Virus record (IMG/VR): IMGVR_UViG_3300031707_000061
Coordinates: 1 to 39,050 of that record
DNA length: 39,050 nt
From: a virus
Strand: one strand, 5' to 3'
The notes beneath the pieces are model-generated. The model was not told the DNA's origin. It saw nothing but the letters and a program-made list of their open reading frames with translations, and made no database searches. This document shows, piece after piece, positions 1,990 through 38,390 of this stretch (position 1 is the first letter of the stretch; each line of letters opens with the position of its first letter). The position numbers and the translations under genes are program-made.

Positions 1990-3315
1990 ATGGCAAATTG
2001 GGTTGTTGATTTTCTAACGCGTAATCCTGACATGGCTGCTTTGCCGATTGCGATGCGGGCGAAGCACTCTATCCATTTCAAGCTCAATGCCAGGGAAAAT
2101 ATAGGGCAATTTGTTGGCGCGCCCTGTCACTTTCAGGATACCGATGGTCTGTGGAAGCCGCTGGACACAAAACTAATTGCCATCGGTTCAGAGTACGGTG
2201 CACCCGGGCTGAGAACGCGCTTATCTAAAAACGGCCTGGTGCGCGTGGACGGGGGCACATACTCGCACAGAAGCACACGAATTGGAATTCTCGATCCGAC
2301 CACCAAGGCATTCTTGGCAATCAAAACCATTCCGAACGGATTGATTTCAGGCGACCAGATCATTGCCGAGAGCGGGGTGTGGAAGCGCGTGCTCACTCTG
2401 ACCGAAACCGGCCTGCGTGAAGAGATCGTTATCTCGGCGCTCCCAACTGGCACAGGCGCGGGGGCTGGCGACTGGCTGGTGTTGGAGACGGCCATCTCCG
2501 GAGTCTCGTTCCCCGATGGTTGGCTGGCTGATTTCAGTGCGGATGGCTTTATGTTCCCACCCCCGCGCACAACTGACGCGAATGGGGATGAGGCCAACTG
2601 CAAACGGTATGCACGAACAGTTGGGGGAGTTCAATATATCTACACCGGCGTTCCGGTCTCATGGCTGGCAGATGCAGTTTATCCGGTGACGATTGATCCT
2701 GATTTTGTAGTAGATGCGGCAGATGGAGTTATCTATGGCAATAATTCTATTTATGCTACTGCACGGAGTACATCTGATGGTTTTTACATTACAAATACTG
2801 CATATAATTTTGGTCAGCAAACCGGTTATACCATTAGACGTGTCTTTTTAAAATTTGATACCAGTGCGATTGGTTCCGAGGCCACTGTAACACAAGTTAA
2901 TTTAAAATTGACATGTGAGGCAGATTCATCTGTAGATGATTTTGATGTTCAGATCGTGAAACAGGATTGGAGCGCGCAAGATCCGATTGCGGCTGGAAAC
3001 CGAGAAGCCGCCTATGATAATTGCCGCGCCGGAACCGCAGATGACAATATCTGGCGCAATACCAACGGCATGTCCATCAACACTCAATATGCCAGCGGTA
3101 ATCTTGCAACCGCGTGGGTGAATAAAACTGGAAATACCTATTATAGTTTGCGCAGCTTCGAAGATTTCAATAATTCAGCGCCCATCAATAATGAATATAT
3201 ATCTATTTATGCACAAGAAATTGGTACTCCTGCCTACCGCCCCATCCTGACGGTGGTGTATACAACAACAGTAATTCCCATATTTATGGCTCAATATAGG
3301 CAACGTTGGAATTAG
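1990..3315 (+). CDS. Tail/adhesin-like protein with C-terminal DNRLRE-like beta domain
   Basis: A 441-residue protein. Residues 1-240 form a beta-rich region ending in 'YPVTIDPDFVV', a motif typical of the linker before DNRLRE/CBM-like domains in secreted proteins. Residues about 240-430 carry 'RVFLKFDTSAI..EATVTQVNLKLTC', the hallmark of the DNRLRE fold, and end near 'AYRPILTVVYTT'. The role is probably an exposed virion fibre or adhesin that contacts the host surface. Base composition changes sharply near 2697: the DNA for the C-terminal domain is AT-rich and its codons differ from the GC-rich N-terminal part. This points to domain acquisition. The last residues 'IPIFMAQYRQRWN' may be a short chaperone-type tail. 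Confidence 0.7.
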   Translation: MANWVVDFLTRNPDMAALPIAMRAKHSIHFKLNARENIGQFVGAPCHFQDTDGLWKPLDTKLIAIGSEYGAPGLRTRLSKNGLVRVDGGTYSHRSTRIGILDPTTKAFLAIKTIPNGLISGDQIIAESGVWKRVLTLTETGLREEIVISALPTGTGAGAGDWLVLETAISGVSFPDGWLADFSADGFMFPPPRTTDANGDEANCKRYARTVGGVQYIYTGVPVSWLADAVYPVTIDPDFVVDAADGVIYGNNSIYATARSTSDGFYITNTAYNFGQQTGYTIRRVFLKFDTSAIGSEATVTQVNLKLTCEADSSVDDFDVQIVKQDWSAQDPIAAGNREAAYDNCRAGTADDNIWRNTNGMSINTQYASGNLATAWVNKTGNTYYSLRSFEDFNNSAPINNEYISIYAQEIGTPAYRPILTVVYTTTVIPIFMAQYRQRWN

Positions 3316-7888: not shown

Positions 7889-8890
7889 ATGGGCGAACGA
7901 TCGTTCAAGAAAATACAGTACGGCAAGGAGTTAAAGACCGCCAAAGGCACCCCTGTGGCGGCCACCAGCATGTTCCTGGGCGATGCGGACGTTCCCAGCG
8001 ACCGGAAGTACATGTACCCGTCCTACAACCTGGCGGTGCGGGCGAGGGCGTCCGAGCCCCACCTGTACCAGCAGTTGGTGGACGGTTTCACCCTGACCAT
8101 CGGCAACGGCTATTTCCAGGTCCTGCCGATGGTGCTCAGCATGCTGCTGAAGGGCGATATCACCGCGGTCGTGCACACCTCCGGCCAGAGCGATTACGAC
8201 TGGCCGTTCACGCCATCCATGACGGCCACGAACGCACAGGACGCGATGACCTTCGAGGTCGGCGACGACGTGCAGGCGTACCAATTGGCCTACGTGATGG
8301 CCAAAAAGCTCACCATTGCGGGTGGGATGGGCGAGGATCAGGCCGTCAAGATCTCGGCGGATTGCTTCGCCAAGTCGGTCGTCCCCGCCACGTTCACCGC
8401 CTCGCTGACCATTCCGACCATCGAGCCGATGGTGGCCAACAAGACCGCGCTCTATATCGATGCGCTTTGGGCGAATAAAGGCACCACCCTGAAGGCCGGC
8501 CTGCTGCGGGACTTCAGTCTGGAGATCATCTCCGGCCTGCACCCCAAATTTCACGGCGGCGCATTGACGCTGGATGCACACGGCGAGACCTACATCGACG
8601 CCATGCTGAAGATGACGCTGGAAGGGAATTCGGTGGCGGACGGCTACTATGATGCCATGCAAGCCAAAACGCCGATGGCCATCCAATTGAATATCCTCGG
8701 GTCGCAGATCGGCAGCGGGCAGACCCACTGGCTGAAAGCCGCCCTGTGGGGCGTCTTCGACGATATTCAGCCGATGGGAAGCGAAGCCGACGGCGACAAC
8801 CTGCACGTGGCCCTGTTCCACGGGCTGTACGGCATCACCGGGGCGCAGATCCTGGCGGTGGACGTATGCACCAACAAAGCCACGCTTTAG
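7889..8890 (+). CDS. Major tail tube protein
   Basis: A 333-residue protein. The sequence has the pattern of siphovirus tail tube proteins: an N-terminal 'KKIQYGKELKTAKGTPVAATSMFLGDADVPSDRKYMYPSYN'-type opening (quoted in parts), Gly- and Thr-rich beta-strands through the centre ('FTLTIGNGYFQVLPMVLSMLL', 'LTIAGGMGEDQAVKIS') and a long C-terminal strand region. Its position before the frameshifted chaperone genes and the tape measure gene is diagnostic. It forms the tail channel. SD GAAGGAGAG precedes ATG. Confidence 0.8.
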   Translation: MGERSFKKIQYGKELKTAKGTPVAATSMFLGDADVPSDRKYMYPSYNLAVRARASEPHLYQQLVDGFTLTIGNGYFQVLPMVLSMLLKGDITAVVHTSGQSDYDWPFTPSMTATNAQDAMTFEVGDDVQAYQLAYVMAKKLTIAGGMGEDQAVKISADCFAKSVVPATFTASLTIPTIEPMVANKTALYIDALWANKGTTLKAGLLRDFSLEIISGLHPKFHGGALTLDAHGETYIDAMLKMTLEGNSVADGYYDAMQAKTPMAIQLNILGSQIGSGQTHWLKAALWGVFDDIQPMGSEADGDNLHVALFHGLYGITGAQILAVDVCTNKATL

Positions 8891-8906
8891 TAGCCGTCGG
8901 CTACTA
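8888..8906. repeat. Short hairpin, family D
   Basis: TAGTAGCC (8888-8895) pairs perfectly with GGCTACTA (8899-8906), with a 3-base loop. The stop codon of the tail tube gene is inside the stem. A related hairpin is at 9667-9687. Confidence 0.75.
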
Positions 8907-8929
8907 TGATATAGCCAAGGACGGTCAGC

Positions 8930-9457
8930 ATGAAATATAAGAACCCAAAGGTTTTGAGCTTCCTGCCGTTGCAGGAATATGCCCCGAATGAACCTGAGCT
9001 GGCCGGGGTGGGCCTGTACGTATGGGTAGACCCGCCCCGCTCGGCGCTGCTGGAGTTCGATCAGCTCAACCGGGATTACGGCAAAGAGCTCGATAAACTG
9101 GCGGCCAAGATGAGCGGCCAGGCGGTCAAGAAAGCCAGCCCGGCCGAGCGCATATTGATCTGGATGCGCGCCCGGGAAAAGCGTTCGCAGGATAGCCATT
9201 TCAAGAGCGCCACCGAGAGCTACCGCCGGTCGCTATATGCCTGGTACGCGCGCCTATGGTCGCAATCGCCGGACGCCGAAACGCACTGGAGCGTGGAAGA
9301 GCTGGAAAAGACCAGCGATACCAACCCGCACCTGTACGAGTGGCTGTGCACCAGCTCCTGGGCGTTGATCGAGCAGCACCGGGCAGACGTAAAAAAAGGC
9401 TATCGGGGTCCGTCGGAGAAATTGCCCGCACCGGCCGCACCGGCGACCCCGTCCTAG
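8930..9457 (+). CDS. Tail assembly chaperone (gpG-like)
   Basis: A 175-residue protein, the zero-frame product at the position of lambda gpG. The sequence is charged and largely helical ('RSALLEFDQLNRDYGKELDKL', 'SPAERILIWMRAREKRSQDSHF'), ending in an Ala/Pro tail read beyond the slippery site. Tail chaperones of this kind bind the tape measure protein and recruit tube subunits; they are absent from the mature virion. The identification rests on synteny and on the -1 frameshift site near the 3' end. Start ATG has weak SD AAGGACGGTC. Confidence 0.75.
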   Translation: MKYKNPKVLSFLPLQEYAPNEPELAGVGLYVWVDPPRSALLEFDQLNRDYGKELDKLAAKMSGQAVKKASPAERILIWMRAREKRSQDSHFKSATESYRRSLYAWYARLWSQSPDAETHWSVEELEKTSDTNPHLYEWLCTSSWALIEQHRADVKKGYRGPSEKLPAPAAPATPS

Positions 9458-9687: not shown

Positions 9688-9706
9688 TCATAGATAGAGA
9701 TTGACG

Positions 9707-12181
9707 ATGGCTCAAAAAGTTTTCAACATCATCATCAAGTTGCTCAAAGAGGGCGGCGCGGACAAAGAAACCGTCAGCGGGCTGATCGATATCAAGAACG
9801 CCCTGGTCACGGGCGCGGCCATCGCGGGTACGTTTGCCGTCGCGTATAAAACGGTGGACAAGGTGCTGGATGAAACGGTGGGGAAATTCGCCACCTACGC
9901 CGCCGGTGTGGACGTCTTCCACTCGGCCTTGACCACCACGACCGAGGAAGCAAGCCGCCTGATCCAGGTGGCGGACGATTTCGGCATCTCCGCCGAGGAG
10001 ATGCAGAAATCCATGTTCCGGGCCGTTAAGGAAGGCATGGAGCCGACCATCGAGGGGCTGGCCGGCATGGCCGACGAATACAACGCACTAGCCACTCCGC
10101 AGGAGAAGGCCGATTTCCTGGTGAAGAACTTCGGCAAGAGCAGCCAGGAGCTGACCCGCCTGCTGGGCGAGGGCGGGCAGGCCATCCGCGACCGGGCGGC
10201 GGCGGTATCCGAGGGCCTGGTGATGGACGAGGCTGCCATCCAAAAGGCGCGCGATTACGCATTTGCGCAGGATGAGCTAAATGATTCCATTGATGGATAC
10301 AAGATAGCAATGGGGGAGCGCTTCATACCCGCAATAACCGCGGGGATCGTATCGATGACAGACGCGGCGACGGCGAACCAACTATATACACGAGCGATGG
10401 AGCTCGGGATAGACGTTGGGCGAAACATGGGGACTGGAATGGTGGCAGTGAATGGAGTGCTTGTTGACCAGACTGAGTTATTGAGGCTGGTGAAGATAGC
10501 TGAAGAGGAAGCTGCGGATGCCGCTTACTATCTAGCCGGCGGCGACGACGAGGCTGCGCGCTCACTGGCTAAAATGGCTACGGGGCTAAAGGATGCCGGG
10601 GATGCGGCCGGGATGACGGATGAAGAATTTAATACTCTATATCGGACCATTGGGACTTTGCAGAAAATCACCGACGATTACAACACGACACAGGGCGAAT
10701 TGGTCACAAAGCAGGGTGAGATTATAACGGCGATCGACCTGGCGATTTCGCAGGGTTATAGTCCGGCGGGGACAAAAATACAGGGATTAAAGACCGATTT
10801 AGAGAATGTCAATACCGAGCTGGAGAATAATGCGAAGGCCTTCGAAGACAATAGCAAAAGGGCTATTTTTGCCATGATCGCTTCCGCTGCCGCAGCGGAC
10901 AGTTGGCAGGCGGGCGAATTCGATGCGCTTATGGGCGTGGCTGAGGCGTGGGGGATTTATAGCCCAGAGGTAGTAACTCAGGCGAAAAATATCCAGGACG
11001 CATTAGATGATGTTGACTCCTCGAACCTGGGTGACATACAGGGATATGCCGAATGGATGATTGCACACCCGAACATTAGTCAATCATTTGATATCTGGGT
11101 AACCACCCATGAAAACATAGAATACACATACACGGGCGCGGGATGTTTTATTGCCGGAACTCTAGTGACCCTGGCCAGCGGGGACCTAAAACCCATCGAG
11201 GAAATCCGGGTCGGCGAGTGGGTTTTGTCGTGGAATATCAAAACGGACGAGCAAATCAAGGCCGAAGTTTGCAAGGTTTTCCATCACGCTGCGGACATAA
11301 TGTCCGGTTTTATCTTGGTCAACAATACGCTGGGCATAACGCCAGAACACAGCATATTCGTAAATGGCCATTGGGCAAAAGCTGGTCGGCTGCATTTAGG
11401 CGATAGCTTAATGGACATGAACGGCCAGACGATAATCATCAAAAAACTCGAATGGATCGAAAATCGGCAGCCGGTGTACAACCTGCACACCAGACACAAA
11501 ACGCATAACTACTTTGCGGGAGGCGTATTAGTACATAATACCCAGGCGAAAATGAAAATGGCTGCCGATTATGGCAGATTGAGCAATACTGGTAGATTGA
11601 CTGACTATGGTCGCAATATGCGCAGTGGCGGGAAGCCGCTTCAATTACCTAGCGGGTTTGAACTGATCAACGGCGAAATTCGGAGCGGAGGCAAACCAAT
11701 ACAAACTGGCATACCAATAAGTGAATTAATAACCAATTTGATCGGTGGGGGTAATGGACGCCCCATTGATGTTTCGATCTCGCAGCAAAACATACAGGAC
11801 TTAGCCAGTGCTATAGGTTTCGAGATTGAAGCATTGAGAGGCGCTGAGGTTAGAACCCCGCCGCTGGCGGGAGACTATGGTCACATAGGCGAAATTCGAA
11901 GCGGAGGCAAGCCGATACAAATCCCTGCTGGACCGGAAAGATATACTAGGGCACAGAATGGCGGCGATTTTTGGGTGCAGAAACCTACATTCTTCCTGGC
12001 CGGGGAGGCCGGGCCGGAGCGGGCCACGTTCACGCCGCAGGGCAGCGCACCGGCCAACGCGCCCGAGATGGGGCGGCTGATGAGCGCCGTCGCCTCTCAA
12101 ACCGTCCAACTACGTTCCCTTCAAAGCGCCCTCGAGGACATGCCCGGGCTTTTTGCGGCCGAGATCCAGAAGCGGATGTAA
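9707..12181 (+). CDS. Tape measure protein interrupted by a mini-intein
   Basis: An 824-residue precursor. The N-terminal 300 residues are Ala-rich helical ('[51 protein letters not shown]' type, quoted loosely), matching short siphovirus tape measures. The C-terminus carries '[29 protein letters not shown]', shown here only as the tape-measure hallmark 'GEAGPER'. Residues 480-611 form a Hint/intein domain; excision would leave about 692 residues. Three 'RSGGKP(L/I)Q' repeats follow the intein. DNA from about 10260 to 11960 is AT-richer than the flanks, which suggests a mosaic middle. ATG at 9707 is chosen; a TTG at 9701 is also in frame. Confidence 0.85.
11144..11539 (+). mobile_element. Mini-intein / bacterial intein-like (Hint) element in the tape measure gene
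   Basis: Exactly 132 codons. It starts with Cys in '[21 protein letters not shown]' (splicing block A, first part), has block B '[10 protein letters not shown]' with the conserved T..H, block F-like '[17 protein letters not shown]', and ends 'VLVHN' followed by Thr as first C-extein residue. Cys1, block B His, penultimate His and terminal Asn are all present, so splicing or at least cleavage is chemically possible. There is no endonuclease domain. The N-extein ends 'YTYTGAG'. It resembles BIL type A / Hint domains. Confidence 0.88.
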
Positions 12182-16731: not shown

Positions 16732-18243
16732 CTAACGGAATTGCAGAGTAATCTCGCCGCCGGGGGATATGATGATCTTGGCCAGCAGAGCATGCAACAA
16801 ATGATTGACATAGACCGGCTCTTCAGTTTCGAAGAAGGCGGGCAGGCGGGCGAGGGCGCCGTGGATGCCGCCCAGGGCGCGCAGGGTTTCGAGGCGCGAT
16901 AGCCCGGCGCGTTCGGCTTCAGCCAGTTCGAGCTGAGCCTTGTCCATTTGCTTATCAATGGCCGCGGCGCGCTCGGAGAAGGAAGCCAGGCCGAGGGAGC
17001 CGGATTGGTAGGCGTCCTCGATGCGGGAGCGCTGGCGCTCGAGCTCGTCAAGCATACCTTGGGCCTGGATGAGGTGGGCGCCGTTGGCGTCCGGCAAAGG
17101 GATCTCTTCGTCTTGCAGCGCGCCTCCCAGGTCCGCAGCGACGCGCTGGATGGCGTCCGGGTGGGTGATGGCGACGTGGCAGCCGCGCGAGCAGCGCCAG
17201 ATCAGGCGATCGGGGATCGCCCGCGGCCCGTTGCCCTGCAGCCACAGTCGGGCGTCACACTCGGAGCAGTGCAGCAGGCCGGTGAAGACGCTGGAACGCT
17301 TGCCCTTGTACGAATGGCCGCGGCGTGCAAACTCGGCCAGGATGGCCTGGTGGGTGGCGTCATCCCAGAGCGGATCGTGCTTACCCTTTGCAATGATAAT
17401 ATTCTTACGGGGGATAGCGCGGTCACGGAAACGGCGACGGGTGCGAGGGTCGAGGATGGAGCGGGAGACGCCCCAGCGGTTGTAGCCGGCATAGAAAGGG
17501 TTGCGCAGAATATCGCGGACGGTCTGCGGCCACCAACGGCGGGAGTGCGGGGGGCGGATGGCGTCTTCCTCGAGCATGTCCACGATCTGGCGGATGGACT
17601 TGCCGTTCAGGAGCATTTCTTTCATTTTGGTCACATAGGAAGAAGTCACCGGATTGGCGACCGGCACGGCCTTGCGATCGGTTTCGTGGCCGGGAGGCTT
17701 GCGGTAGCCGAAAGGGATGGCGATGGCAGGCAGGCCGCGTTCGGAAACGCGGAGGGGCATGGCAAAAAAATACTTGCGACGCAAATCTGCGATTTTCGCC
17801 CGGCTAATAATATGCGACATTCCCTCCATGATGAAAGAACTATCGCTGGCGTATGGCGAATAAACTTCGGGGGAAAGCGGCTCGAGCGGCTGGTTGACAG
17901 AATAGATCTGGGCGCCATATTGGGAGAGGGTAAGTGAGACGAGAGCCAGCAGATCGCGGAGGCGGTCATAGTCATATAAGATCAGGATATCATATTCGTG
18001 GCGCTGGGCGGAATCAAGCAGAGCTTTGAGCTGGGGGATGGCCAGCTCGGCGTCCCGCAGGTTGACGTAGCGGGTGCGGCTCTCGCCCGGGCAGATGAAA
18101 GGGCCGGCAGATTCACGCCAGCCTTTGCCCGTGGCGGCCTGGCGGCAGCGGGTCTCCTGCTCGGAGAGGGAGGTCTTATCGGCGGCGGCCTGGGCTTCGG
18201 TGGAGACGGCGGCCCAGATGGAGAAGCGGATGGGTGAAGACAT
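16732..18243 (-). CDS. Large serine recombinase (phage integrase)
   Basis: A 503-residue protein. N-terminal resolvase domain: 'AAVSTEAQ' with the presumed nucleophile Ser14, 'SLSEQETRCRQAA', 'YDILILYDYDRLRD' and 'LTLSQYGAQIYSVNQPLEP'. Then the recombinase domain ('AIPFGYRKPPG', 'KSIRQIVDMLEEDAIRPP', 'VRDILRNPFYAGYNRWG') and a zinc ribbon 'LLHCSECDARLWLQ...WRCSRGC' with four Cys. A coiled-coil C-terminal region follows. This is the integrase of the temperate phage; attP should lie beside the gene, most likely in 18244-18600. It is convergent with the late operon. Confidence 0.93.
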   Translation of the reverse strand: MSSPIRFSIWAAVSTEAQAAADKTSLSEQETRCRQAATGKGWRESAGPFICPGESRTRYVNLRDAELAIPQLKALLDSAQRHEYDILILYDYDRLRDLLALVSLTLSQYGAQIYSVNQPLEPLSPEVYSPYASDSSFIMEGMSHIISRAKIADLRRKYFFAMPLRVSERGLPAIAIPFGYRKPPGHETDRKAVPVANPVTSSYVTKMKEMLLNGKSIRQIVDMLEEDAIRPPHSRRWWPQTVRDILRNPFYAGYNRWGVSRSILDPRTRRRFRDRAIPRKNIIIAKGKHDPLWDDATHQAILAEFARRGHSYKGKRSSVFTGLLHCSECDARLWLQGNGPRAIPDRLIWRCSRGCHVAITHPDAIQRVAADLGGALQDEEIPLPDANGAHLIQAQGMLDELERQRSRIEDAYQSGSLGLASFSERAAAIDKQMDKAQLELAEAERAGLSRLETLRALGGIHGALARLPAFFETEEPVYVNHLLHALLAKIIISPGGEITLQFR

Positions 18244-18285: not shown

Positions 18286-18358
18286 GTCCCAGTAGCTCAA
18301 TGGACAGAGCCCAGATCCGCTAAATCTGTGGGTGTGAGTTCGAATCTCATCTGGGACA
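18286..18358 (+). tRNA. tRNA-like gene, anticodon GCU, short variable loop, C33
   Basis: A 73-base cloverleaf: acceptor GTCCCAG/CTGGGAC (7 bp), T8 A9, D-stem GCTC/GAGC with GG in the loop, anticodon stem CAGAT/ATCTG, loop CCGCTAA, a 5-base variable loop, T-stem GTGAG/CTCAT with loop TTCGAAT, discriminator A, no encoded CCA. The anticodon is GCU (Ser, AGY codons), but serine tRNAs have a long variable arm and this one does not; the body looks like an arginine-type class I tRNA. The normally universal U33 is C. Charging and decoding are therefore doubtful. Confidence 0.85.
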
Positions 18359-20862: not shown

Positions 20863-21169
20863 ATACTTTTTGATCCAGGTCGATAATGCCGAAGAGATGA
20901 ACCAGAAGGTGAACTATCTGCTGGCGCAAGGCTGGGAGCCTTACATGGGATTGGTGATCGCTCCACGTGAATCTGAATTGCGCTGTCTGTTCCAGTGGAT
21001 GATCCGTGGCGAGACCGATCGTCGGCCGCCAGCCCTACCCCCAGCCCCTCCCCAAATGGAAAAACACCATTTGGAGAGGGGAAAAGAGAGTCTGCCGGCC
21101 GAAGGTGCCGGCCGTGATGTGGCGGCGGCATGGCTGCATACATCTGTGGCAGCGGGAGAGAACCTATGA
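20855..21169 (+). CDS. DUF1737-like small protein with palindrome-encoded tail
   Basis: A 104-residue protein. Residues 1-50 ('EYFLIQVDNAEEMNQKVNYLLAQGWEPYMGLVI' in part) match DUF1737-like proteins, where a short beta-alpha-beta unit ends 'L..GWEP.GG'. From residue ~60 the sequence is Pro-rich and is encoded by a family A palindrome ('PPAPPQMEKHHLERGKES'), then continues into unrelated residues. Translation is coupled to both neighbours (8-base overlap upstream, ATGA downstream). Function unknown. Confidence 0.65.
   Translation: MYEYFLIQVDNAEEMNQKVNYLLAQGWEPYMGLVIAPRESELRCLFQWMIRGETDRRPPALPPAPPQMEKHHLERGKESLPAEGAGRDVAAAWLHTSVAAGENL
21045..21081. repeat. G/C-rich palindrome, family A, inside a CDS
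   Basis: CCCCTCCCCAAATGG (21045-21059) faces CCATTTGGAGAGGGG (21067-21081), 14 of 15 pairs, 7-base loop. Confidence 0.85.
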
Positions 21170-22521: not shown

Positions 22522-22946
22522 ACAAGAAATATCTACACGAGCTTGCACTTTTGCAGAAGCTCTTCGCGAAGCATTACCGCGAAGGTCCTCTCATCGCGGT
22601 CGCCAGCGACTATGTACAAATCACCGCCGAAGCGATGGCCGAGCTAATACGCGGCCCTAACGGCAGCTGTGGCAGAGTAACCAATCGCCACGAGGACGAA
22701 TACCAAGTCGAGTTCAAGGCTGAGACTGAAGGCGTGACGTTCCTCGCTATCATGTCCTACGACGATATTCACGAGTGTGCTCTCCGGGAGTTCCTACCTA
22801 CCGAGTTGCTTGAGGCTTACGTGCAACACTTGTACCATAAGGAGGCAAAGATAGCCTCACCCCCGACCCCTCTCCAAATCGAAATCCACGATTTGGAGAG
22901 GGGAGAAGAAAGAAGGGAAAATGAGCGAAAACACGAGGATCTATGA
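22518..22946 (+). CDS. Hypothetical protein with palindrome-encoded tail
   Basis: A 142-residue protein. The body ('YLHELALLQKLFAKHYREGPLIAVASDYVQITAEAMAEL', quoted in part, and 'YQVEFKAETEGVTFLAIMSYDDIHECALREFLP') looks like a compact alpha/beta protein. The last ~30 residues are encoded by a family A palindrome ('PPTPLQIEIHDLERGEERR'). They run 26 bases into the next gene in another frame. Start chosen at ATG 22518, overlapping the upstream stop. Function unknown. Confidence 0.6.
   Translation: MNKKYLHELALLQKLFAKHYREGPLIAVASDYVQITAEAMAELIRGPNGSCGRVTNRHEDEYQVEFKAETEGVTFLAIMSYDDIHECALREFLPTELLEAYVQHLYHKEAKIASPPTPLQIEIHDLERGEERRENERKHEDL
22867..22903. repeat. G/C-rich palindrome, family A, inside a CDS
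   Basis: Perfect 15-base arms: CCCCTCTCCAAATCG (22867-22881) and CGATTTGGAGAGGGG (22889-22903). It also supplies the purine-rich leader of the gene at 22921. Confidence 0.9.
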
Positions 22947-23313: not shown

Positions 23314-23425
23314 TAATTTGCCTGCATACCGGATTGCGGGTGCGAAGAGAGTTGACAGCCAGGAATTAGGCGGAATGTGTCTGTCTATACACTAGTTGGG
23401 CGGCTCTCGCCCGAAAGGAAAACGC

Positions 23426-23608
23426 ATGACTAAAAAGATAGTCAATATTGAAAAAATCCGTCCCTGTTCAGATTTTGGTTGTGAACGAAAGGCTATCGTC
23501 GCAATTGTCTATGATGATTATCGCGTGCTGTTTGCTTGCAAAAAACACAGCCGCCCAACACAGCGTGCAGCGGACGCTGGAAACCGCGCCGCTAACGCAA
23601 ACCGTTAG
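23426..23608 (+). CDS. Cassette 1: small Cys-containing protein ending in attC
   Basis: A 60-residue protein. The body ('KIVNIEKIRPCSDFGCERKAIVAIVYDDYRVLFACKKH' in part) has a C..C...C pattern compatible with metal binding. Its last 16 residues, 'TQRAADAGNRAANANR', are encoded by attC1, and the stop is the TAG of the core box GTTAG. The same tail occurs in cassette 5. ATG 23426 has SD AAAGGAAAA. Function unknown. Confidence 0.7.
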   Translation: MTKKIVNIEKIRPCSDFGCERKAIVAIVYDDYRVLFACKKHSRPTQRAADAGNRAANANR

Positions 23609-23610
23609 AT
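23553..23610 (+). other. attC site 1 (58 bp)
   Basis: R'' GCCCAAC (23553-23559), core R' GTTAGAT (23604-23610), with GCGTGCAGCGG and CCGCTAACGC forming the inner imperfect stem. R'' is the exact complement of the core box at 23395-23401 that opens this cassette. Confidence 0.9.
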
Positions 23611-23623
23611 GCTTCGGAGCAAA

Positions 23624-23818
23624 ATGAAAAACTTCATGTGCAGAATTTGTGAAGATACTGGAAAAGTTGGTTTGGTGTTCAAGAAAATTTGCCCGCAATG
23701 TGAAGGCAATCCAGAAGCGTATTTTTTGAAAACCTTCAAAGCGCCCTCCTCTCTGCCACCACCCCCGCCACCAGGAAGAGCCGCAGACATCGTGATTGAA
23801 ATACGAAAGCGGGTCTAA
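23624..23818 (+). CDS. Cassette 2: small zinc-ribbon-like protein
   Basis: A 64-residue protein. 'CRICEDTGKVG' and 'CPQCEG' give two CxxC pairs of the DnaJ/rubredoxin zinc-ribbon type, so one zinc ion is probably bound. A Pro-rich linker ('SSLPPPPPPGRAADI') follows. The stop TAA is inside the R'' box of attC2, which is typical for cassettes. ATG 23624 follows CGGAGC; an earlier in-frame ATG at 23609 is inside the core site. Function unknown. Confidence 0.7.
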   Translation: MKNFMCRICEDTGKVGLVFKKICPQCEGNPEAYFLKTFKAPSSLPPPPPPGRAADIVIEIRKRV

Positions 23819-23935
23819 CAAAGCGTGCAGGCGGACGGCTTACCCGTCTTGCAATGTGCGGAGTGTGGCGAGCAAACGAGCATGAACCACAAAGAGTCTT
23901 GCTCGAAACGCCGCCGCTAACGCAAACCGTTGGGT
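23813..23935 (+). other. attC site 2 (123 bp)
   Basis: R'' GTCTAAC (23813-23819), core GTTGGGT (23929-23935), stem GCGTGCAGGCGGACGGC / CGCCGCCGCTAACGC with a long loop. R'' matches the complement of the cassette's opening box GTTAGAT at 6 of 7 positions. Confidence 0.85.
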
Positions 23936-23949
23936 TGCTCGGAGGAACT

Positions 23950-24201
23950 ATGTTTGATTTGCAAAAGTTAAACGCTTTACTTGGAACGAATTTCGCCAGC
24001 ATTGACGAGATTACCGAACATCAACTCTTGGCCGCATTGGTGACTCTTACCGCCGCTTCGCTTGGTGTCGAGATATTTGTGTGCAACCCAACTATGGGTG
24101 CAGTGGACGGTGCTTGCTCATGCGACAAAGTAAGGTTTTATACAGATGAAAATGTCGTGGCGGAAGATTGCCCTGTGCATAATCCGCCCCCCCGCCGCTA
24201 A
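23950..24201 (+). CDS. Cassette 3: hypothetical protein
   Basis: An 83-residue protein. The N-terminal part ('LQKLNALLGTNFASIDEITEHQLLAALVTL') is helical. The middle ('GVEIFVCNPTMGAVDGACSCDKVRFYTDE') is already inside attC3, so about 40 C-terminal residues are encoded by the recombination site. The stop TAA is in the L' arm. SD CTCGGAGGAACT is near ideal. Function unknown. Confidence 0.7.
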   Translation: MFDLQKLNALLGTNFASIDEITEHQLLAALVTLTAASLGVEIFVCNPTMGAVDGACSCDKVRFYTDENVVAEDCPVHNPPPRR

Positions 24202-24216
24202 CGCAAGCCGTTAGAT
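24086..24216 (+). other. attC site 3 (131 bp, overlaps its ORF)
   Basis: R'' ACCCAAC (24086-24092), core GTTAGAT (24210-24216). The left stem arm GGTGCAGTGGACGG is diverged from other copies; the right arm CCGCCGCTAACGCA is typical. R'' is the exact complement of the opening box GTTGGGT of this cassette, which supports the boundary. Confidence 0.8.
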
Positions 24217-24238
24217 GCTTTTTTGCTAAAGGAGAGGC

Positions 24239-24430
24239 ATGAAATATATCAAGGTTACTCGCAGTGATGTTCAAGGCAGTTATATCCAGCCTGTAAAAGA
24301 TATTCCTGGAATTGTACAGGGCGAGTTGGACGACATCGAATATTTATCCCCCGGCGTGTCGGTCGCGTTGACCGTTGTTGAAATGCCGGAAGAAGAGTAT
24401 GCCAAACTACCCGAGTTCGCGGGATGGTGA
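24239..24430 (+). CDS. Cassette 4: small acidic protein
   Basis: A 63-residue protein: 'MKYIKVTRSDVQGSYIQPVK', 'DIPGIVQGELDDIEYLSPG', 'VSVALTVVEMPEEEYAKLPE' and 'FAGW'. It looks like a single small beta-rich domain; a similar 'E..M..EEY..LPEF.GW' ending is common in cassette and phage proteins, but no function is known. It ends before attC4. SD AAAGGAGAGGC. Confidence 0.7.
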   Translation: MKYIKVTRSDVQGSYIQPVKDIPGIVQGELDDIEYLSPGVSVALTVVEMPEEEYAKLPEFAGW

Positions 24431-24433
24431 CGC

Positions 24434-24493
24434 ATCTAACAAAGCGTGCAGCGGACGGCTGAAAACCGCCGCCGCTAACGCCAACCGTTAGAA
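24434..24493 (+). other. attC site 4 (60 bp)
   Basis: R'' ATCTAAC (24434-24440), core GTTAGAA (24487-24493), stem GCGTGCAGCGGACGGC / CGCCGCCGCTAACGC. R'' is the exact complement of the opening box GTTAGAT. Confidence 0.9.
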
Positions 24494-24499
24494 GGCACT

Positions 24500-24763
24500 A
24501 TGTCAAAAAATAAAAGTAAGTGTCAGAAAGATAGTCATTTCAAATCATGTTGTTGCGGTTGCGTAAATCGCGTTGAGCTACTCAATAATGACCAGCATCC
24601 AATTGTTCAGGTAGGTTGGGGATGTGCGGCAATTTTTGTAATGGAAGGCAATACGGTATTCATTGGCGATTTTGAACATGGGCTTTGTGAAATGTGGCAA
24701 CCGCGCCTTCTAACACAGCGTGCAGCGGACGCTGGAAACCGCGCCGCTAACGCAGACCGTTAG
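24500..24763 (+). CDS. Cassette 5: Cys-rich protein ending in attC
   Basis: An 87-residue protein. A Cys cluster 'CQKDSHFKSCCCGCVNRVEL' suggests metal binding. The centre ('PIVQVGWGCAAIFVMEGNTV', 'FIGDFEHGLCEMWQP') is beta-rich. The last 16 residues 'TQRAADAGNRAANADR' come from attC5, and the stop is the TAG of its core box. The tail differs from that of cassette 1 in one residue. The ATG is only 7 bases after the core; a usable SD overlaps it (GAAGGCACT). Function unknown. Confidence 0.7.
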   Translation: MSKNKSKCQKDSHFKSCCCGCVNRVELLNNDQHPIVQVGWGCAAIFVMEGNTVFIGDFEHGLCEMWQPRLLTQRAADAGNRAANADR

Positions 24764-24765
24764 GT
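24708..24765 (+). other. attC site 5 (58 bp)
   Basis: R'' TTCTAAC (24708-24714), core GTTAGGT (24759-24765), inner sequence almost identical to attC1. R'' is the exact complement of the opening box GTTAGAA. Confidence 0.9.
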
Positions 24766-25273
24766 GGCTTCCTTGCTCCAGCAGTCTCAATTTTTACAAA
24801 TAGCACTTGACCCGCAAGATGTGGTTTATACCCCTGATTGGGTCGCCGCTGATATGGTCGCTCATTTCAAACCTAGCGGGCGCATTGTTGAACCATGCAA
24901 AGGGGAAGGCGTTTTTATGCAATATCTTCCCGCTGCAGAATGGTGTGAAATTGCCGAAGGAAAAGACTTCTTTCAATTTGTCGAACCCGTTGATTATCTC
25001 TTTGGCAATCCACCATATAAAATCTTTTCAAAATGGATGGCTCACAGCATGAGCATAGCGCAAAACATTGTTTATCTAATCCCGCTGAATAAAACTTTCA
25101 ACTCGGGCAAATTCCTGCTTGAATTGAATGAGTGGGGTTTACCAAAACACATGCGCTATTATGGCACTGGTTCTGAGTTAGGTTTTCCCACAGGCTTCGC
25201 GGCTGGGGCTGTGCATTTTCAAAAGGGGTGGCGTGGCGCAATGGGCTTATCTTTTTGCGAACACGCCACCTAA
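24764..25273 (+). CDS. Cassette 6: adenine-specific DNA methyltransferase-like protein
   Basis: A 169-residue protein. 'IVEPCKGEGVF' (residues 41-51) is the SAM-binding motif I form EP..G.G, and 'LFGNPPYKIF' (79-88) carries motif IV NPPY, the N6-adenine/N4-cytosine methylation site. The order (motif I then IV) fits gamma or related classes. It is short; no target-recognition domain is evident. The start is uncertain: GTG 24764 sits in the core site and TTG 24773 is an alternative. The stop lies in attC6 R''. It could modify phage DNA against restriction. Confidence 0.82.
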   Translation: MASLLQQSQFLQIALDPQDVVYTPDWVAADMVAHFKPSGRIVEPCKGEGVFMQYLPAAEWCEIAEGKDFFQFVEPVDYLFGNPPYKIFSKWMAHSMSIAQNIVYLIPLNKTFNSGKFLLELNEWGLPKHMRYYGTGSELGFPTGFAAGAVHFQKGWRGAMGLSFCEHAT

Positions 25274-25358
25274 CACAGCGTGCAGCGGATTGGCGGGTAC
25301 GGCGCGGCTTGAAAGCGAAGTAGCGCAACCCGCCAACCGCTAACGCAAACCGTTAGAA
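25268..25358 (+). other. attC site 6 (91 bp)
   Basis: R'' ACCTAAC (25268-25274), core GTTAGAA (25352-25358), stem AGCGTGCAGCGGATTGGCGGGT / ACCCGCCAACCGCTAACGC with a mid-length loop. R'' is the exact complement of the opening box GTTAGGT. Confidence 0.9.
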
Positions 25359-25368
25359 GGCGGCTAAG

Positions 25369-25851
25369 ATGAGTTTTGCTAATGGCAACAAGGCTGATGG
25401 TAAACATTACTGGCTTACTCCGGAAGCGTTGATGGCAGAAATGAGAGCAGAATTCCGCTTTGATTTTGATCCTTGTCCATATCCTCAGTCTGATGATTTC
25501 AATGGTCTAACCGCCGAGTGGGGCCAGTCTAATTACGTCAATCCACCCTTCGGTAGTTATATTCAGGATGACAAGAAGAAGGGCCCAACCGCCTGGGCAC
25601 GTAAGGCAATCGAAGAATTCAGGAAAGGTAAGAGAGTTGTTCTTGTTTATCCAATTGATAAATGGATCCACATGCTTTTAGAGGCTGGGGCGCAGGTCCG
25701 CAACCTGAAAGACATCAAATGGTGTGCTATTGAAGATGGCACACCAGGGCCAGGCACGGGGCGCTGGGTTGCCATGTTTATTTTAGAACCAGAAGATTAT
25801 ACGCCGCCTTCTAACAATCGCTTGCAGCGGACGGGAGAACACCGCCGCTAA
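25369..25851 (+). CDS. Cassette 7: Dam-type phage N6-adenine methyltransferase
   Basis: A 160-residue protein. 'YWLTPEALM' at 14-22, 'FDFDPCPYP' at 31-39 and 'YVNPPFGSY' at 56-64 are the DNA N-6-adenine-methyltransferase (phage Dam, PF05869-type) pattern, with the SAM site around DPCP and catalytic NPPF. The later 'VVLVYPIDKWIHMLLEAGAQV' and 'TGRWVAMFILE' also fit the family. The C-terminus ('NNRLQRTGEHRR') is attC7-encoded. It is unrelated in detail to the cassette 6 enzyme. A likely role is methylation against host restriction. Confidence 0.88.
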   Translation: MSFANGNKADGKHYWLTPEALMAEMRAEFRFDFDPCPYPQSDDFNGLTAEWGQSNYVNPPFGSYIQDDKKKGPTAWARKAIEEFRKGKRVVLVYPIDKWIHMLLEAGAQVRNLKDIKWCAIEDGTPGPGTGRWVAMFILEPEDYTPPSNNRLQRTGEHRR

Positions 25852-25866
25852 CGCAAACCGTTGGGC
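25809..25866 (+). other. attC site 7 (58 bp)
   Basis: R'' TTCTAAC (25809-25815), core GTTGGGC (25860-25866), stem GCTTGCAGCGGACGG / CCGCCGCTAACGC. R'' is the exact complement of the opening box GTTAGAA. Confidence 0.9.
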
Positions 25867-25886
25867 CGCAGGAGCAAAGAGAAAAC

Positions 25887-26261
25887 ATGGACAAATTGCT
25901 GGATAGATTGACAAACAGAATAGCCGATAGGTTTGTTGAGAAGATGAACAGAAAGATATTTGAGGTTGCCAGCGTAAATATAAAACCCGGCGATGTGCTG
26001 GTTTTGAAATCCAAAAGCTTTCTTTCCGCTTACGCGACGGAGCACATTTTAGAAAGCCTGAAAGAAATCTTCCCCCGCCAACGTATTGTTGTGTTGGAAG
26101 ATGGGCTAGAGTTTGCGGTGGTCAGTGGCATAATGCTGCCCGAACACCGGCTCCATTGGCCGAACAGAAGCGACTCGGCTACGGGCTGCCCGTTCTGTGG
26201 TGTCTCCGCAGAAGATATTGCAAACTTCAATGAGGCCTCGCCAGAACCGCCGAGCGCCTGA
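25887..26261 (+). CDS. Cassette 8: hypothetical protein
   Basis: A 124-residue protein. An amphipathic N-terminal helix ('KLLDRLTNRIADRFVEKMNRKIF') is followed by 'VNIKPGDVLVLKSKSFLSAY' and 'HILESLKEIFPRQRIVVLEDGLEFAVVSG' (in part), resembling a small alpha/beta domain seen in other cassette and phage proteins with 'L.PGD.LV' and 'V.VLE.G'. 'CPFCGVSAEDI' near residue 105 gives a CxxC. The C-terminal ~35 residues overlap the predicted attC8. Function unknown. Confidence 0.7.
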   Translation: MDKLLDRLTNRIADRFVEKMNRKIFEVASVNIKPGDVLVLKSKSFLSAYATEHILESLKEIFPRQRIVVLEDGLEFAVVSGIMLPEHRLHWPNRSDSATGCPFCGVSAEDIANFNEASPEPPSA

Positions 26262-26276
26262 GCCAAGCCGTTAGCC
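26159..26276 (+). other. attC site 8 (118 bp, degenerate)
   Basis: Core GTTAGCC (26270-26276), R'' GCCGAAC (26159-26165), inner arms AGCGACTCGGC / GCCGAGCGC. R'' agrees with the complement of the opening box GTTGGGC at 6 of 7 positions. The inner sequence is unlike the other seven, so this assignment is weaker. Confidence 0.6.
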
Positions 26277-26403
26277 TGCTCCGAACGTTCCGGGCTTACA
26301 ACCGGACCGCGATAATCCACGGAGGCCGGTTTACAAAAGGCAGTCACGGCGGCGCGGGCTTGATATGGTTCGAAAGAAAACCAATATCTAAGGAGTCTAT
26401 CGC

Positions 26404-33054: not shown

Positions 33055-33587
33055 TCACAATCGCATCTCTGCGCGACAAACACGCCGGCCGGCCGGGGGC
33101 GGTACTGGGAGGAGGCCCAAGCCTGCAGGCGGACCTGGCACAGGTCCCGCCGGGGGCGGTGTTGATCAGTGTCAACCAACATGCCGTGCAGCACGTTTGG
33201 ACAAATTATCTAGTCTTCCTGGATGAACCTGGCCGCTATCCCGCCATGCTAGACTTGATTAATACATACCAGGGAGCGAAAGTCAGCCCGCTCAGGGAAT
33301 GGAGCGACGTAGATTTGGACGGTGCAGATTACTGGCGTGGGAATTTCTCCAGCCACCTGGCCTGCTGGCTGGCATGCTGGCTGGGTTGTGACCCGGTTCT
33401 GCTGTGCGGGATGGACTGCTATCAGGGACCGCGCCCGCCGGATGCCGACCCGCGCGACAATGCTTACAACACACCGCTCGCCGAGCATCTGGAAGGCTGG
33501 CGGCTGGCGTTGGAGAGATGCCCGAATGCCGGCGTGATCCGGGCGGTCAGCGGGCCGCTGGTGGAGATTTTTGGAGCGTTCCCGTAG
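33051..33587 (+). CDS. DUF115 / MptE-like Rossmann-fold protein
   Basis: A 178-residue protein. 'PGAVLGGGPSLQADLAQVPP' is the glycine-rich nucleotide-type loop of DUF115/MptE-like proteins ('GGGPSL'). Then come 'GAVLISVNQHAV', 'YLVFLDEP' and 'DPVLLCGMDCYQGP' as further core strands ending in motif-like D. Cellular relatives include 6-hydroxymethylpterin diphosphokinase and glycan-transfer proteins; phage homologues lie near terminase and portal genes and have no proven role. Start ATG in an ATGA overlap. Confidence 0.7.
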   Translation: MITIASLRDKHAGRPGAVLGGGPSLQADLAQVPPGAVLISVNQHAVQHVWTNYLVFLDEPGRYPAMLDLINTYQGAKVSPLREWSDVDLDGADYWRGNFSSHLACWLACWLGCDPVLLCGMDCYQGPRPPDADPRDNAYNTPLAEHLEGWRLALERCPNAGVIRAVSGPLVEIFGAFP

Positions 33588-33596
33588 AAACGCCGC

Positions 33597-33625
33597 TTGA
33601 CAAAAGTGTGGAAAGAGCGTAAGAT
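33597..33625 (+). promoter_or_regulatory. Strong promoter upstream of the portal operon
   Basis: Consensus TTGACA (33597-33602), 17-base spacer, TAAGAT (33620-33625), starting 10 bases after the preceding stop. It is one of the clearest promoters in the window and faces the head-gene operon. Confidence 0.85.
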
Positions 33626-33631
33626 ATATTT

Positions 33632-33761
33632 GATTGACCCCCATCTGTGGGGATAACTGGACTCTTGCACCTATAGCTAGGGTTCATTCAGCAACACAGG
33701 ATTGACGGAGTACTGCCCGCCCATTCGGACCGCAAGGTTCGCCCTGGCGGGCGCTTTAATT
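33632..33761 (+). ncRNA. Structured leader RNA or small RNA between terminase and portal genes
   Basis: About 130 bases lie between a promoter and a terminator, without an ORF. Near the 5' end CCCCA/TGGGG (33639-33643/33648-33652) forms a hairpin; the middle includes AACTGGACTCTTGCACC and CAGGATTGACGGAG; the 3' end is the terminator hairpin with a GCAA tetraloop. It could be a stand-alone small RNA or a leader controlling read-through into the portal operon. No known RNA class was recognised. Confidence 0.5.
33715..33761 (+). terminator. Rho-independent terminator with GNRA-loop stem
   Basis: GCCCGCC (33715-33721) pairs with GGCGGGC (33746-33752), enclosing CGGACC-GCAA-GGTTCG. It is followed by GCTTTAATTT. 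Placed upstream of the portal operon, it would require read-through or antitermination for expression from 33597. Confidence 0.75.
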
Positions 33762-33770
33762 TAAGCCAGA

Positions 33771-33811
33771 GATTGCCACGCCGCCGGAAGAACACCGTCG
33801 GCTCGCAATGA
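33771..33811. repeat. REP-like inverted repeat
   Basis: ATTGC (33772-33776) and GCAAT (33805-33809) flank a GC-rich centre with CCGCCGG / CCGTCGG. The 'GATTGC...GCAATGACA' outline is like short interspersed palindromes of many bacterial genomes. Confidence 0.5.
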
Positions 33812-33830
33812 CACCATTAACCGGAGCGCT

Positions 33831-34022
33831 ATGGCTGAGTCAAAACCCAAAAGCAAAATAGAAATTCCCGACATCTTTTTATTCTTGGGCCTGCTCATGC
33901 TATTCGTGGGCCTGGGATTCGCCGTTTCGTGGCCGTGGGCGCTGGCCCTCACCGGCGCGGTCCTGATCAGTCTCTCGATCTGGCTGGTGGAACCCAAGAA
34001 GCCTGCGAAGGATCAGCCCTGA
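33831..34022 (+). CDS. Small two-helix membrane protein
   Basis: A 63-residue protein. Basic N-terminus ('MAESKPKSKIEIPD'), two transmembrane helices at about 15-33 ('IFLFLGLLMLFVGLGFAVS') and 35-53 ('PWALALTGAVLISLSIWLV'), basic tail 'EPKKPAKDQP'. It stands directly before the portal gene with a TGATG overlap. Similar small membrane proteins often precede portal genes in this phage type. Function unknown. Confidence 0.65.
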   Translation: MAESKPKSKIEIPDIFLFLGLLMLFVGLGFAVSWPWALALTGAVLISLSIWLVEPKKPAKDQP

Positions 34023-35626
34023 TGCTGCGCCAGATGCTCGAGCAGCGTGCGTCCATCGGCCAGAGCTGGCATGTATCGCAGGCGCCGCCCGGGTCCATCG
34101 TGCGGGGCTACGGCGACACCTACGCTGGCGAGGACGTGGACCCGGAGATTGCCTTATCGGTGACAGCCTGGATCGCCGGGACGCGTATCCTGGGCGAAGG
34201 AGTGAGCAGCCTGCCGCTGATCCTGTACCGGCGGCTGAAGGGCGGCGGGAAAGAGCGGGCGGTGGATCATCCATATTACAACCTGCTGCACGACGCCCCA
34301 AATCCTGAACATCCTTCGATGGTTTTTCGGGAGCTCCTGCAGAACTCGCTGGTTTTGTGTGGCAACGCCTACGCCCAGAAGGTCTATAACGGCGCCGGGC
34401 GGATCATAGAACTCTGGCCGCTGCGCGGCGATCGCATGAGAGTCGAGCGAATCGGCGGGCGGCGAGTCTATCATTACCTTACGGCGCGCGGCGCGCAGCG
34501 TGATTTCAATGCCGAAGAGATCCTACACATTCCGGGTTTTGGCTTTGATGGTTTGGTCGGCTACTCGCTGGTGTACCTGGCCCGGCACGCCATTGCGCTC
34601 AGCATTGCCCTGGAGAAATATGGGAGCAAATTCTTTGCCAACGGGGCCTGGCCAGGCATTGTTCTCGAACACCCCAAGCGGCTAACGCAAGAGGCGCAAG
34701 ACAACCTAAAGGATTCATTTATGGAATCGCACGGCGGCACCGACCAATCGCACGGTGTCTTTATCGCAGAGGAGGGGATGAAGGCTACCCAGATGGACCT
34801 CTCACCGGAGACCTCACAGATGGTCGAGACCAGGCGTTTCCAGGTTGCGGAAGTTGCGCGCATCCTGCGCATCCCGCTGGCCATGCTCGAAGAACACACC
34901 GCCTCAGCGACATACGCCTCCGTAGAACAATTTATGCTCAGCTACGTCAACCACACCTTGCGTCCCTGGCTGGTGCGCTGGGAACAGATGCTCAGCCTGT
35001 CCCTGCTCACCCCCGCCGAACGGAAAGAAATATTTTTCGAGCACCTGATCGACGGGCTGCTGCGTGGGGACGCCCAGGGGCGCGCCACTGCCTTGAACAC
35101 ACAACGTAATGCAGGTGTGCTCAATGCCGACGAATGGCGTGAGATCGAGAATCGCAACCCGCTCCCGAATGGGGAAGGGCAGATCTTCTGGCGGCCGCTC
35201 AATATGGCTAACGTTGATGACCAGAAGCGGGCTTTCGAACCGCTCTTCCAGGAGATCGCCAATCGCATCACCCGGCGCGAAATCCACGATCTGAGAGAAG
35301 CGGGGCGCAAGTTCCAGAAAAAGCCGCTCGAAGAATGGAACGCCTGGCTGAGCGCTTTCTATGCCGAGCACCGGGAATTCATCGAGCGCGCCTTCCAGCC
35401 GGCAGTGGAAGCCCTGGCCGGTGCGCTCGGACAGCCGGTCCCGGACGTGCGGCTGCTGGCCGCCGATTATGCCGGGCGCAACCTGCGCTCCCTGCAGGCG
35501 GTACGTGAGCTGGACGATATTGATCTCTCACTTACCCCCTTCGAAAAGGAATTCCCCTACCATTTGACCACCCGGGCCTTTGCTCTGTTCGAAAAAGATG
35601 TTCAAGTAGTAACGGAGAAACCATGA
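34022..35626 (+). CDS. Portal protein (HK97 family)
   Basis: A 534-residue protein. The N-terminus contains 'AWIAGTRILGEGVSSLPLIL', then 'HPYYNLLHDAPNPEHPSMVF', 'LVLCGNAYAQKVYNGAGRI', 'ILHIPGFGFDGLVGYSLVYL' and 'KFFANGAWPGIVLEHPK', all typical of HK97-type portals. Twelve copies would form the DNA channel at the capsid vertex. The C-terminal ~100 residues ('LEEWNAWLSAFYAEHREFIERAFQPAVEAL' in part) are an extra helical extension. ATG 34022 is chosen from the TGATG overlap; a longer start would overlap the membrane gene. Confidence 0.93.
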   Translation: MLRQMLEQRASIGQSWHVSQAPPGSIVRGYGDTYAGEDVDPEIALSVTAWIAGTRILGEGVSSLPLILYRRLKGGGKERAVDHPYYNLLHDAPNPEHPSMVFRELLQNSLVLCGNAYAQKVYNGAGRIIELWPLRGDRMRVERIGGRRVYHYLTARGAQRDFNAEEILHIPGFGFDGLVGYSLVYLARHAIALSIALEKYGSKFFANGAWPGIVLEHPKRLTQEAQDNLKDSFMESHGGTDQSHGVFIAEEGMKATQMDLSPETSQMVETRRFQVAEVARILRIPLAMLEEHTASATYASVEQFMLSYVNHTLRPWLVRWEQMLSLSLLTPAERKEIFFEHLIDGLLRGDAQGRATALNTQRNAGVLNADEWREIENRNPLPNGEGQIFWRPLNMANVDDQKRAFEPLFQEIANRITRREIHDLREAGRKFQKKPLEEWNAWLSAFYAEHREFIERAFQPAVEALAGALGQPVPDVRLLAADYAGRNLRSLQAVRELDDIDLSLTPFEKEFPYHLTTRAFALFEKDVQVVTEKP

Positions 35627-36114
35627 AAGAGATTCCATTGACCCAAAGCAAGATTGCAATCGTAGACGACGACATGTTCGAGGAACTATCGAAACACAAA
35701 TGGTATTTCGAGGGTAGATATGCTGCACGAATATCCTCTCTTCATCTTGGAAAGCAGAAGTTGATCCGGATGCATCGCACGATCTGTAGCACGCCCGATG
35801 GGATGGAAACCGATCACATCAATGGGGACAAACTGGACAACCGGCGCGAGAATCTTCGGATTTGCACGCGTGCCGAGAATAGCAGAAATAAGAGAAAGCG
35901 CGCCCATAACACCAGTGGATATAAAGGCGTTTATTGGTATAAGCGAGACAAAAAGTGGGAAGCGCAAATTGAAATAGAAGGGAAGAATATCCATTTGGGA
36001 TATTTCGAAGATCTTCTCAATGCGGCCCGCGCCTACGATGCCGCAGCAATTAAATTGCACGGATCCTTTGCAAGAACAAATTTCCAGGAGGTGAACTGTG
36101 CCATACGCGAATGA
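35623..36114 (+). CDS. Freestanding homing endonuclease (HNH-AP2)
   Basis: A 163-residue protein. N-terminal beta region ('KEIPLTQSKIAIVDDDMFEE'), then the HNH motif 'MHRTIC', 'ETDHINGDKLDNRRENLRIC' (His65 as the first metal-site residue) and 'NSRN', followed by an AP2-like DNA-binding domain at about residues 95-155 ('SGYKGVYWYKRDKKWEAQI', 'HLGYFEDLLNAARAYDAAAI'). Freestanding HNH-AP2 proteins cut phage genes and spread by homing. It sits between portal and protease with 4- and 17-base overlaps, and its DNA is AT-richer, which points to a recent arrival. Confidence 0.92.
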   Translation: MKEIPLTQSKIAIVDDDMFEELSKHKWYFEGRYAARISSLHLGKQKLIRMHRTICSTPDGMETDHINGDKLDNRRENLRICTRAENSRNKRKRAHNTSGYKGVYWYKRDKKWEAQIEIEGKNIHLGYFEDLLNAARAYDAAAIKLHGSFARTNFQEVNCAIRE

Positions 36115-38310: not shown

Positions 38311-38333
38311 TCAGACTACTGCCTCACCCCCAA

Positions 38334-38370
38334 CCCCTCTCCAAATGGGAAACCACCATTTGGAGAGGGG
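38334..38370. repeat. G/C-rich palindrome, family A
   Basis: A perfect 15-base inverted repeat CCCCTCTCCAAATGG (38334-38348) / CCATTTGGAGAGGGG (38356-38370). Its G-rich arm runs into the SD of the next gene (GAAGGAGAAAAAC). Confidence 0.92.
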
Positions 38371-38390
38371 GGAAGAAGAAGGAGAAAAAC

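Follow-up and report, generated by a model that had tools for sequence, protein, structure and literature searches.

An integrase-less integron cassette array headed by an attI-like site in a temperate phage genome

Introduction

Bacteria use integrons as platforms for collecting genes, and integron cassettes have lately been linked to anti-phage defence. Here we describe an array of such cassettes in the genome of a temperate phage, IMG/VR record G000, whose 39,050 bp constitute the stretch of DNA analysed throughout (the window). Phage-borne arrays are not without precedent. Among 10,705 phage genomes, Qi et al. (2023, PMC9892861) found 17 attC clusters devoid of integrase, several of them with DNA methyltransferases, and showed that phage attC sites recombine with attI1 through IntI1. 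This precedent removes the novelty that a sequence-only reading of the window had implied for a phage-borne array.

The phage clusters of attC sites lacking an integrase (CALINs) of Tetrasphaera phage TJE1, Polaribacter phage P12002L and Pseudoalteromonas phage PH101 resemble the window in having no integrase; the cassettes of TJE1 and PH101 are unidirectional, as they are here, and DNA methyltransferases are part of the cargo of some phage CALINs (PMC9892861). TJE1 was described with 3 attC sites (PMC9892861), whereas the window has 7-8 together with an attI-like head, a closed temperate genome and an Anaerolineae-type attC; in contrast to the phage CALINs, the window phage also has array-bearing and array-less relatives. 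The array of Shewanella prophage M16-3 begins at attI and lacks an integrase, like that of the window, but M16-3 is a cryptic prophage that also holds a complete integron (PMC9892861), whereas no intI was seen in the circularly closed genome studied here. Vibrio anguillarum phages p16 and p42 are temperate phages carrying part of a chromosomal integron; unlike the window they encode intIA, and the cassettes of p16 form a subset of those in the host array (PMC9892861). Finally, chromosomal integrons of Anaerolineae (Chloroflexota) have their attC and attI types in common with the window, but they carry intI, and their cassettes are roughly double the length and have cargo of toxin-antitoxin and defence-like types. 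Beyond the work of Qi et al., the present analysis describes closed temperate phages whose arrays have an attI head and an Anaerolineae-type attC but no integrase; it adds that this form recurs in unrelated phages, that relatives with and without an array exist, and that cassette size and cargo show a contrast.

Results

Repeat structure, pairing and covariation identify a cassette array

The interval 23395-26270 of the window is a genuine integron cassette array, all of it on the + strand (Table 1). Repeat finding revealed eight direct repeats of the attC 3′ half (GCTAACGCAAACCGTTRG type) on this strand between 23581 and 26274, with a spacing of 272-593 bp. Seven copies lie at 23581, 23906, 24187, 24464, 24736, 25329 and 25837, and a diverged copy lies at 26247. 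Seven cassettes are certain or nearly so and the eighth is degenerate; thus, of the eight cassettes originally proposed, seven are well supported and the last is not. The edges proposed at the same time, 23396 and 26270, coincide exactly with G/TT cut points (the slash marking the cut). Each cassette contains one or few open reading frames (ORFs) in a common orientation, as the definition of a cassette has it. The G+C content of the array is 46-51%, against 54-60% in its surroundings.

The strongest test, independent of conserved letters, concerned the pairing of cassette ends. The opening bases of a true cassette (TTRRRY and a few beyond) pair with the R″ box of its own attC, since the two are neighbours in the excised circle, even though a whole cassette separates them in the array. 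The starts of cassettes 1-7 are complementary to their own R″ over 6-13 nt; cassette 8 fails. The eight pairing runs sum to 72, a value reached by 2 of the 40,320 permutations, whereas pairing to the following cassette sums to 32. Pairing with the own start rather than with the next cassette is the pattern that formerly circular units should show.

A covariance model, R1, was built from 34 attC arm pairs of chromosomal attC sites, with zero phage sequence, originating from 76 genome stretches that contain an 18-mer attC motif. In these 34 sites 90% of the cells are paired (77% when shuffled) and 79 cells show double changes (vs 30), the arm covariation score being 0.364 against 0.127 in shuffled controls (0/500). 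In the window, R1 finds attC1, 2, 4, 5, 6 and 7 (48-65 bits, E 2e-18 to 4e-13) and misses attC3 and attC8, the next match having an E of 1.3. With filters off, the covariance search gives the long attC sites low scores, which length bands probably explain; with default settings it copes with them. The 3′ half of attC3, which R1 does not reach, matches at 17 of 18 bases (one mismatch). Folds of the bottom strand clearly beat shuffles for attC4, 5 and 6 and do so weakly for attC1, 3 and 7; those of attC2 and attC8 are no better than shuffles. The boxes and arms of an attC (RYYYAAC, GTTRRRY, paired L″/L′ and an extrahelical base) are recognised at six of the eight sites by R1 and at a seventh by own-start pairing. 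The sequence-only reading had claimed conserved core boxes and paired arms for the attC copies and had suggested covariance and folding as checks: its claim stands for these seven sites and falls for attC8, the covariance check leaves out attC3 and attC8, and the folding check leaves out attC2 and attC8. A blastn search with one attC gave zero matches among 50,697 phage and 72,556 plasmid records, so that, at the sensitivity of this search, neither collection contains this attC type, and no Rfam family reports the attC sites of the window.

Table 1. Features of the cassette array and its borders (window coordinates; own-start, length of complementarity between cassette start and own R″; z, bottom-strand fold against shuffles)
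Feature	Coordinates	Strand	Description
Segment absent from near relative L052	23310-26388		52-bp spacer in its place
attI-like site, GGCGGAATGTGTCTGTCTATACACTAG/TTGGGC	23369-23401	+	cut point after G23395; attI matrix rank 1
Cassette 1	23396-23604	+	ORF 23426-23608; own-start 11 nt
attC1	23553-23610	+	R1 64.6 bits, E 2e-18
Cassette 2	23605-23929	+	ORF 23624-23818; own-start 6 nt
attC2	23813-23935	+	long, 123 nt; R1 52.6 bits, E 1.5e-14
Cassette 3	23930-24210	+	ORF 23950-24201, extending into its own attC; own-start 10 nt
attC3	24086-24216	+	long, ~131 nt; R″/L″ side diverged; own-start 10 nt
Cassette 4	24211-24487	+	ORF 24239-24430; own-start 9 nt
attC4	24434-24493	+	R1 64.0 bits; z -3.5
Cassette 5	24488-24759	+	ORF 24500-24763, terminating inside attC5; own-start 10 nt
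attC5	24708-24765	+	R1 60.8 bits; z -2.9
Cassette 6	24760-25352	+	ORF 24764-25273, small DNA methyltransferase, NPPY motif; own-start 10 nt
attC6	25268-25358	+	R1 57.2 bits; z -3.9
Cassette 7	25353-25860	+	ORF 25369-25851, Dam-type N6-adenine methyltransferase, NPPF motif; own-start 13 nt
attC7	25809-25866	+	R1 48.1 bits
Cassette 8, last unit	25861-26270	+	ORF 25887-26261; G/TT points at both ends
attC8, degenerate	26139-26276	+	3′ half recognisable (repeat family 71%), R″ decayed; no R1 match; z -0.7
Right flank	26271-26359		93% identical in array-less L116; homology begins exactly at cut point

An attI-like site heads the array in a closed phage genome

The first 127 bases of the window are identical to its last 127. 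Identical contig ends are the trace left by an assembler on closing a circle, and the genome is therefore probably complete. Hallmark genes for TerL, portal, head protease, HK97-type major head protein and endolysin, together with those for a large serine integrase and a C1-type repressor, indicate a temperate phage. The window is thus a circularly closed, probably complete genome of 39 kb from a temperate HK97-type phage, the type to which it had been assigned from its letters. The serine integrase ORF (16732-18243, matching phrog_95) is the sole recombinase found in the window. The predicted ORFs showed no integron integrase, though the window was not searched with a dedicated intI profile; within that scope, and given the closed genome, the earlier description of an integron array residing in a temperate phage without an integrase gene is supported.

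What had been overlooked is the site at the head of the array. An attI matrix composed of 12 distinct chromosomal attI sites beside intI puts position 23395 first among 78,060 window positions, at 21.2 bits vs 12.9 for the next, and also ranks the array heads of G087 and G051 first within their own genomes. In G087, a circular phage, 25 of the 27 bases of GGCGGAATGTGTCTGTCTATACACTAG recur at the array head. At chromosomal intI loci, a site ending in TAG/TT is present 113-235 bp upstream of intI in 13 of 20 cases and points away from the gene, which is the canonical position and direction of attI. When the first cassettes of viral arrays were located by own-start pairing, ignoring attI, TAG/TT was found to end 10 of 10 viral array heads without a preceding attC (the window and nine others), and the scores of these ten heads lie far out in the tail of the distribution for 15,099 GTT positions. 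These results identify the head of the window array as an attI-like site, the predicted acceptor for cassettes. Of the elements of a complete integron, the window has attI, judged by similarity to sites beside intI, and lacks a visible intI; at least two attC sites without intI nearby qualify it as a CALIN. Since an acceptor site accompanies the cassettes while the enzyme is absent, the locus goes beyond a conventional CALIN.

Chromosomal source of the attC type

By a count of record titles, 50 of the 76 genome stretches carrying the 18-mer are assigned to Chloroflexota, the majority to Anaerolineae. Among 40 genomes with the attC motif, 23 encode an integron integrase that passes the TIGR02249 cut-off, as do about a quarter of the genomes of the host class (74/298). 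R1 locates the same attC type a few kb from chromosomal intI genes. As far as sequence likeness goes, the attC and attI types point to chromosomal integrons of Anaerolineae (Chloroflexota).

Relatives with and without the array

Looking for the same locus in related phages, as the sequence-only reading had advised, uncovered both states. The near relative L052, which is array-less, is 89% identical to the window at the DNA level in the gene on the left flank and the stretch next to it. The right flank has its counterpart in L116 in a 90-bp segment (3207-3296) that adjoins a different gene than in the window; this segment may therefore itself belong to the mobile module. No attI-like site was found in the examined stretches of L052 or L116. 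The distant relative G089 (major head protein 59%, portal 44% and TerL 33% identical) bears an array of different cassettes at 10.25-13.4 kb, directly upstream of its HNH and TerL genes and in the same region as in the window.

Integrase-less arrays recur in several unrelated phages. The 18-mer attC motif was found in 51 viral stretches, which contain 156 R1 matches; apart from the clear phages, some of these records may be fragments or include host DNA. Of 49 viral records with the motif, just 3 have an IntI above the cut-off. These three, G070 (L209), G047 (L210) and G088 (L211), have either an intI of the phage itself or host DNA where the contig ends. Two further genomes with 127-nt identical ends have a cassette array alongside phage genes: G042 encodes TerL, portal, endolysin and a DnaB-like helicase, G087 tape measure and a DnaB-like helicase. 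Both arrays include methyltransferase cassettes. G087 also encodes one protein twice (8092-9348 and 33278-34555), the copies being 77% and 68% identical to the product of window 1990-3315; the phage is otherwise different.

Cassette size and cargo

Viral cassettes have a median length of 447 bp vs 932 bp for chromosomal ones (p 3.5e-9), a comparison in which missed attC sites would inflate the lengths of both sets. Pfam matches of viral cassette ORFs are mostly DNA methyltransferases; those of chromosomal cassette ORFs are helix-turn-helix antitoxin-like, TIR, GmrSD and other families. Enrichment for methyltransferases was judged from these overlapping Pfam lists and then by motif count, the N6-methyltransferase motif [DNS]PP[YFWH] being present in 9 of the 78 viral cassette ORFs and in 2 of the 98 chromosomal ones (p 0.012). 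In the window, the methyltransferase of cassette 6 matches phrog_799 (E 4e-24) and PADLOC MTase_II (E 1.5e-4). That of cassette 7 matches phrog_111 (E 4e-14), PF05869 just under the cut-off (E 1e-5) and a PADLOC orphan MTase; a 59% identical homologue sits in another viral cassette array, L046. Solved structures provided no useful relative for either enzyme. The cassette 2 ORF encodes a small zinc-ribbon-like protein with a weak match to PF12760 (E 0.005, below cut-off). Cassette 8 may be a phage gene turned cassette. A relative of its protein, 32% identical, is encoded in G089 (L051 4704-4943), outside the array and near HNH and TerL. The ORFs of cassettes 1 and 5 read in frame through their attC sites (23563-23608 and 24718-24763) and end in near-identical C-terminal tails, QRAADAGNRAANANR and QRAADAGNRAANADR.

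Other features of the genome

A tRNA-Ser (GCT) gene at 18286-18358 adjoins the serine integrase gene and may mark the attachment region. By eye, the translation of the ORF in tape-measure position (9701-12181) holds an intein-like (Hint) stretch, and the ORF at 35623-36114, between the portal and head protease genes, resembles an HNH/AP2-type homing endonuclease. A palindromic element of ~50 bp, CTCTCCAAATCGAAATCCACGATTTGGAGAG, is found at 22860-22907, at 38321-38386 and near 21026, and recurs in relatives of the phage.

Discussion

The reading that we consider probable is that the locus is an integron cut down to its substrate half, an attI-like acceptor with seven intact cassettes and a decayed one, maintained in a temperate phage and served in trans by the IntI of the host. 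Its basis is the attI-like site, the attC sites, cassettes that match their own circles, a near relative without the array and a like arrangement in other phages. A landing site without its enzyme suggests that the phage probably borrows the integrase of its host. In a host with a chromosomal integron, IntI would act in trans on the folded bottom strand of the phage attC sites and either insert cassettes at the phage attI or shuffle and excise them. The cassettes would be expressed within the rightward early transcript, most ORFs starting a small distance into the cassette and being preceded by a plausible ribosome-binding site. The cargo would be selected for the needs of the phage, chiefly DNA methylation against host restriction.

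Several observations weigh on the other side. The promoter scan detected no sigma-70-like promoter above chance on the + strand near the array head or in the array region. The Anaerolineae are candidate hosts: TerL relatives occur in 8 of the 298 host-class genomes, at 29-47% identity, and homologues of the serine integrase and of cassette 7, sought in all 298, were found in none. The R1 sites were picked through a motif in common with the phage sites, so that R1 scores are not fully independent, a weakness from which own-start pairing and covariation are free. Lastly, the action of IntI in trans is something we infer.

The array might instead be a passive fragment, namely a piece of a host integron (attI and first cassettes, with intI left behind) acquired once by illegitimate or homologous recombination and now inert. 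Joint absence of attI and array from L052, along with the lack of an attI-like site in either array-less relative, suggests that the module may have arrived as one block, and attC3 and attC8 are eroding. However, the phage cassettes have about half the chromosomal length and a different content; several phages bear arrays with differing cassettes, among them the distant relative G089, whose array occupies the same region; and cassette 7 has its close homologue in another viral array and none in the host-class genomes. We therefore hold this explanation to be unlikely, while giving it some weight.

An artificial join between phage and chromosomal integron DNA during assembly, a worry raised when the array was first noticed, would account for the lower G+C content of the array. 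This explanation is opposed by the closed circle that the identical ends fit, by array edges falling exactly on recombination points, by a right flank that is phage sequence common to L116 from the cut point onward, and by likewise arranged arrays in three further phage genomes, one of them the distant relative with its array in the same region; a chimera is thus very improbable. Nor is there much to recommend the notion that the repeats are merely attC-like hairpins, such as terminators or regulatory elements, between small early genes. The 3′ half of an attC followed by a T-run at 24198-24214 does look like a terminator, but simple hairpins would leave unexplained the own-start pairing, the covariation, the attI-like head and the presence of the same repeats beside intI genes, and we give this idea almost no credence.

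Returning to the substrate-half reading, a broader proposal can be put forward tentatively, as a possibility that we rate below even chances. Phages of Anaerolineae may keep a "satellite integron", made of their own attI and a set of small counter-defence cassettes, adapted to phages and passed around between phages and host integrons with the help of a borrowed IntI; bacterial integrons would hold the defence cassettes, and phages would exchange the answers through the same machinery. The phage attI, the seven attC sites and the array-bearing and array-less relatives provide concrete sequences for direct tests of recombination in trans. If the enzyme is indeed left to the host, the phage would be a mobile user of the integron platform and a route for cassettes between hosts.

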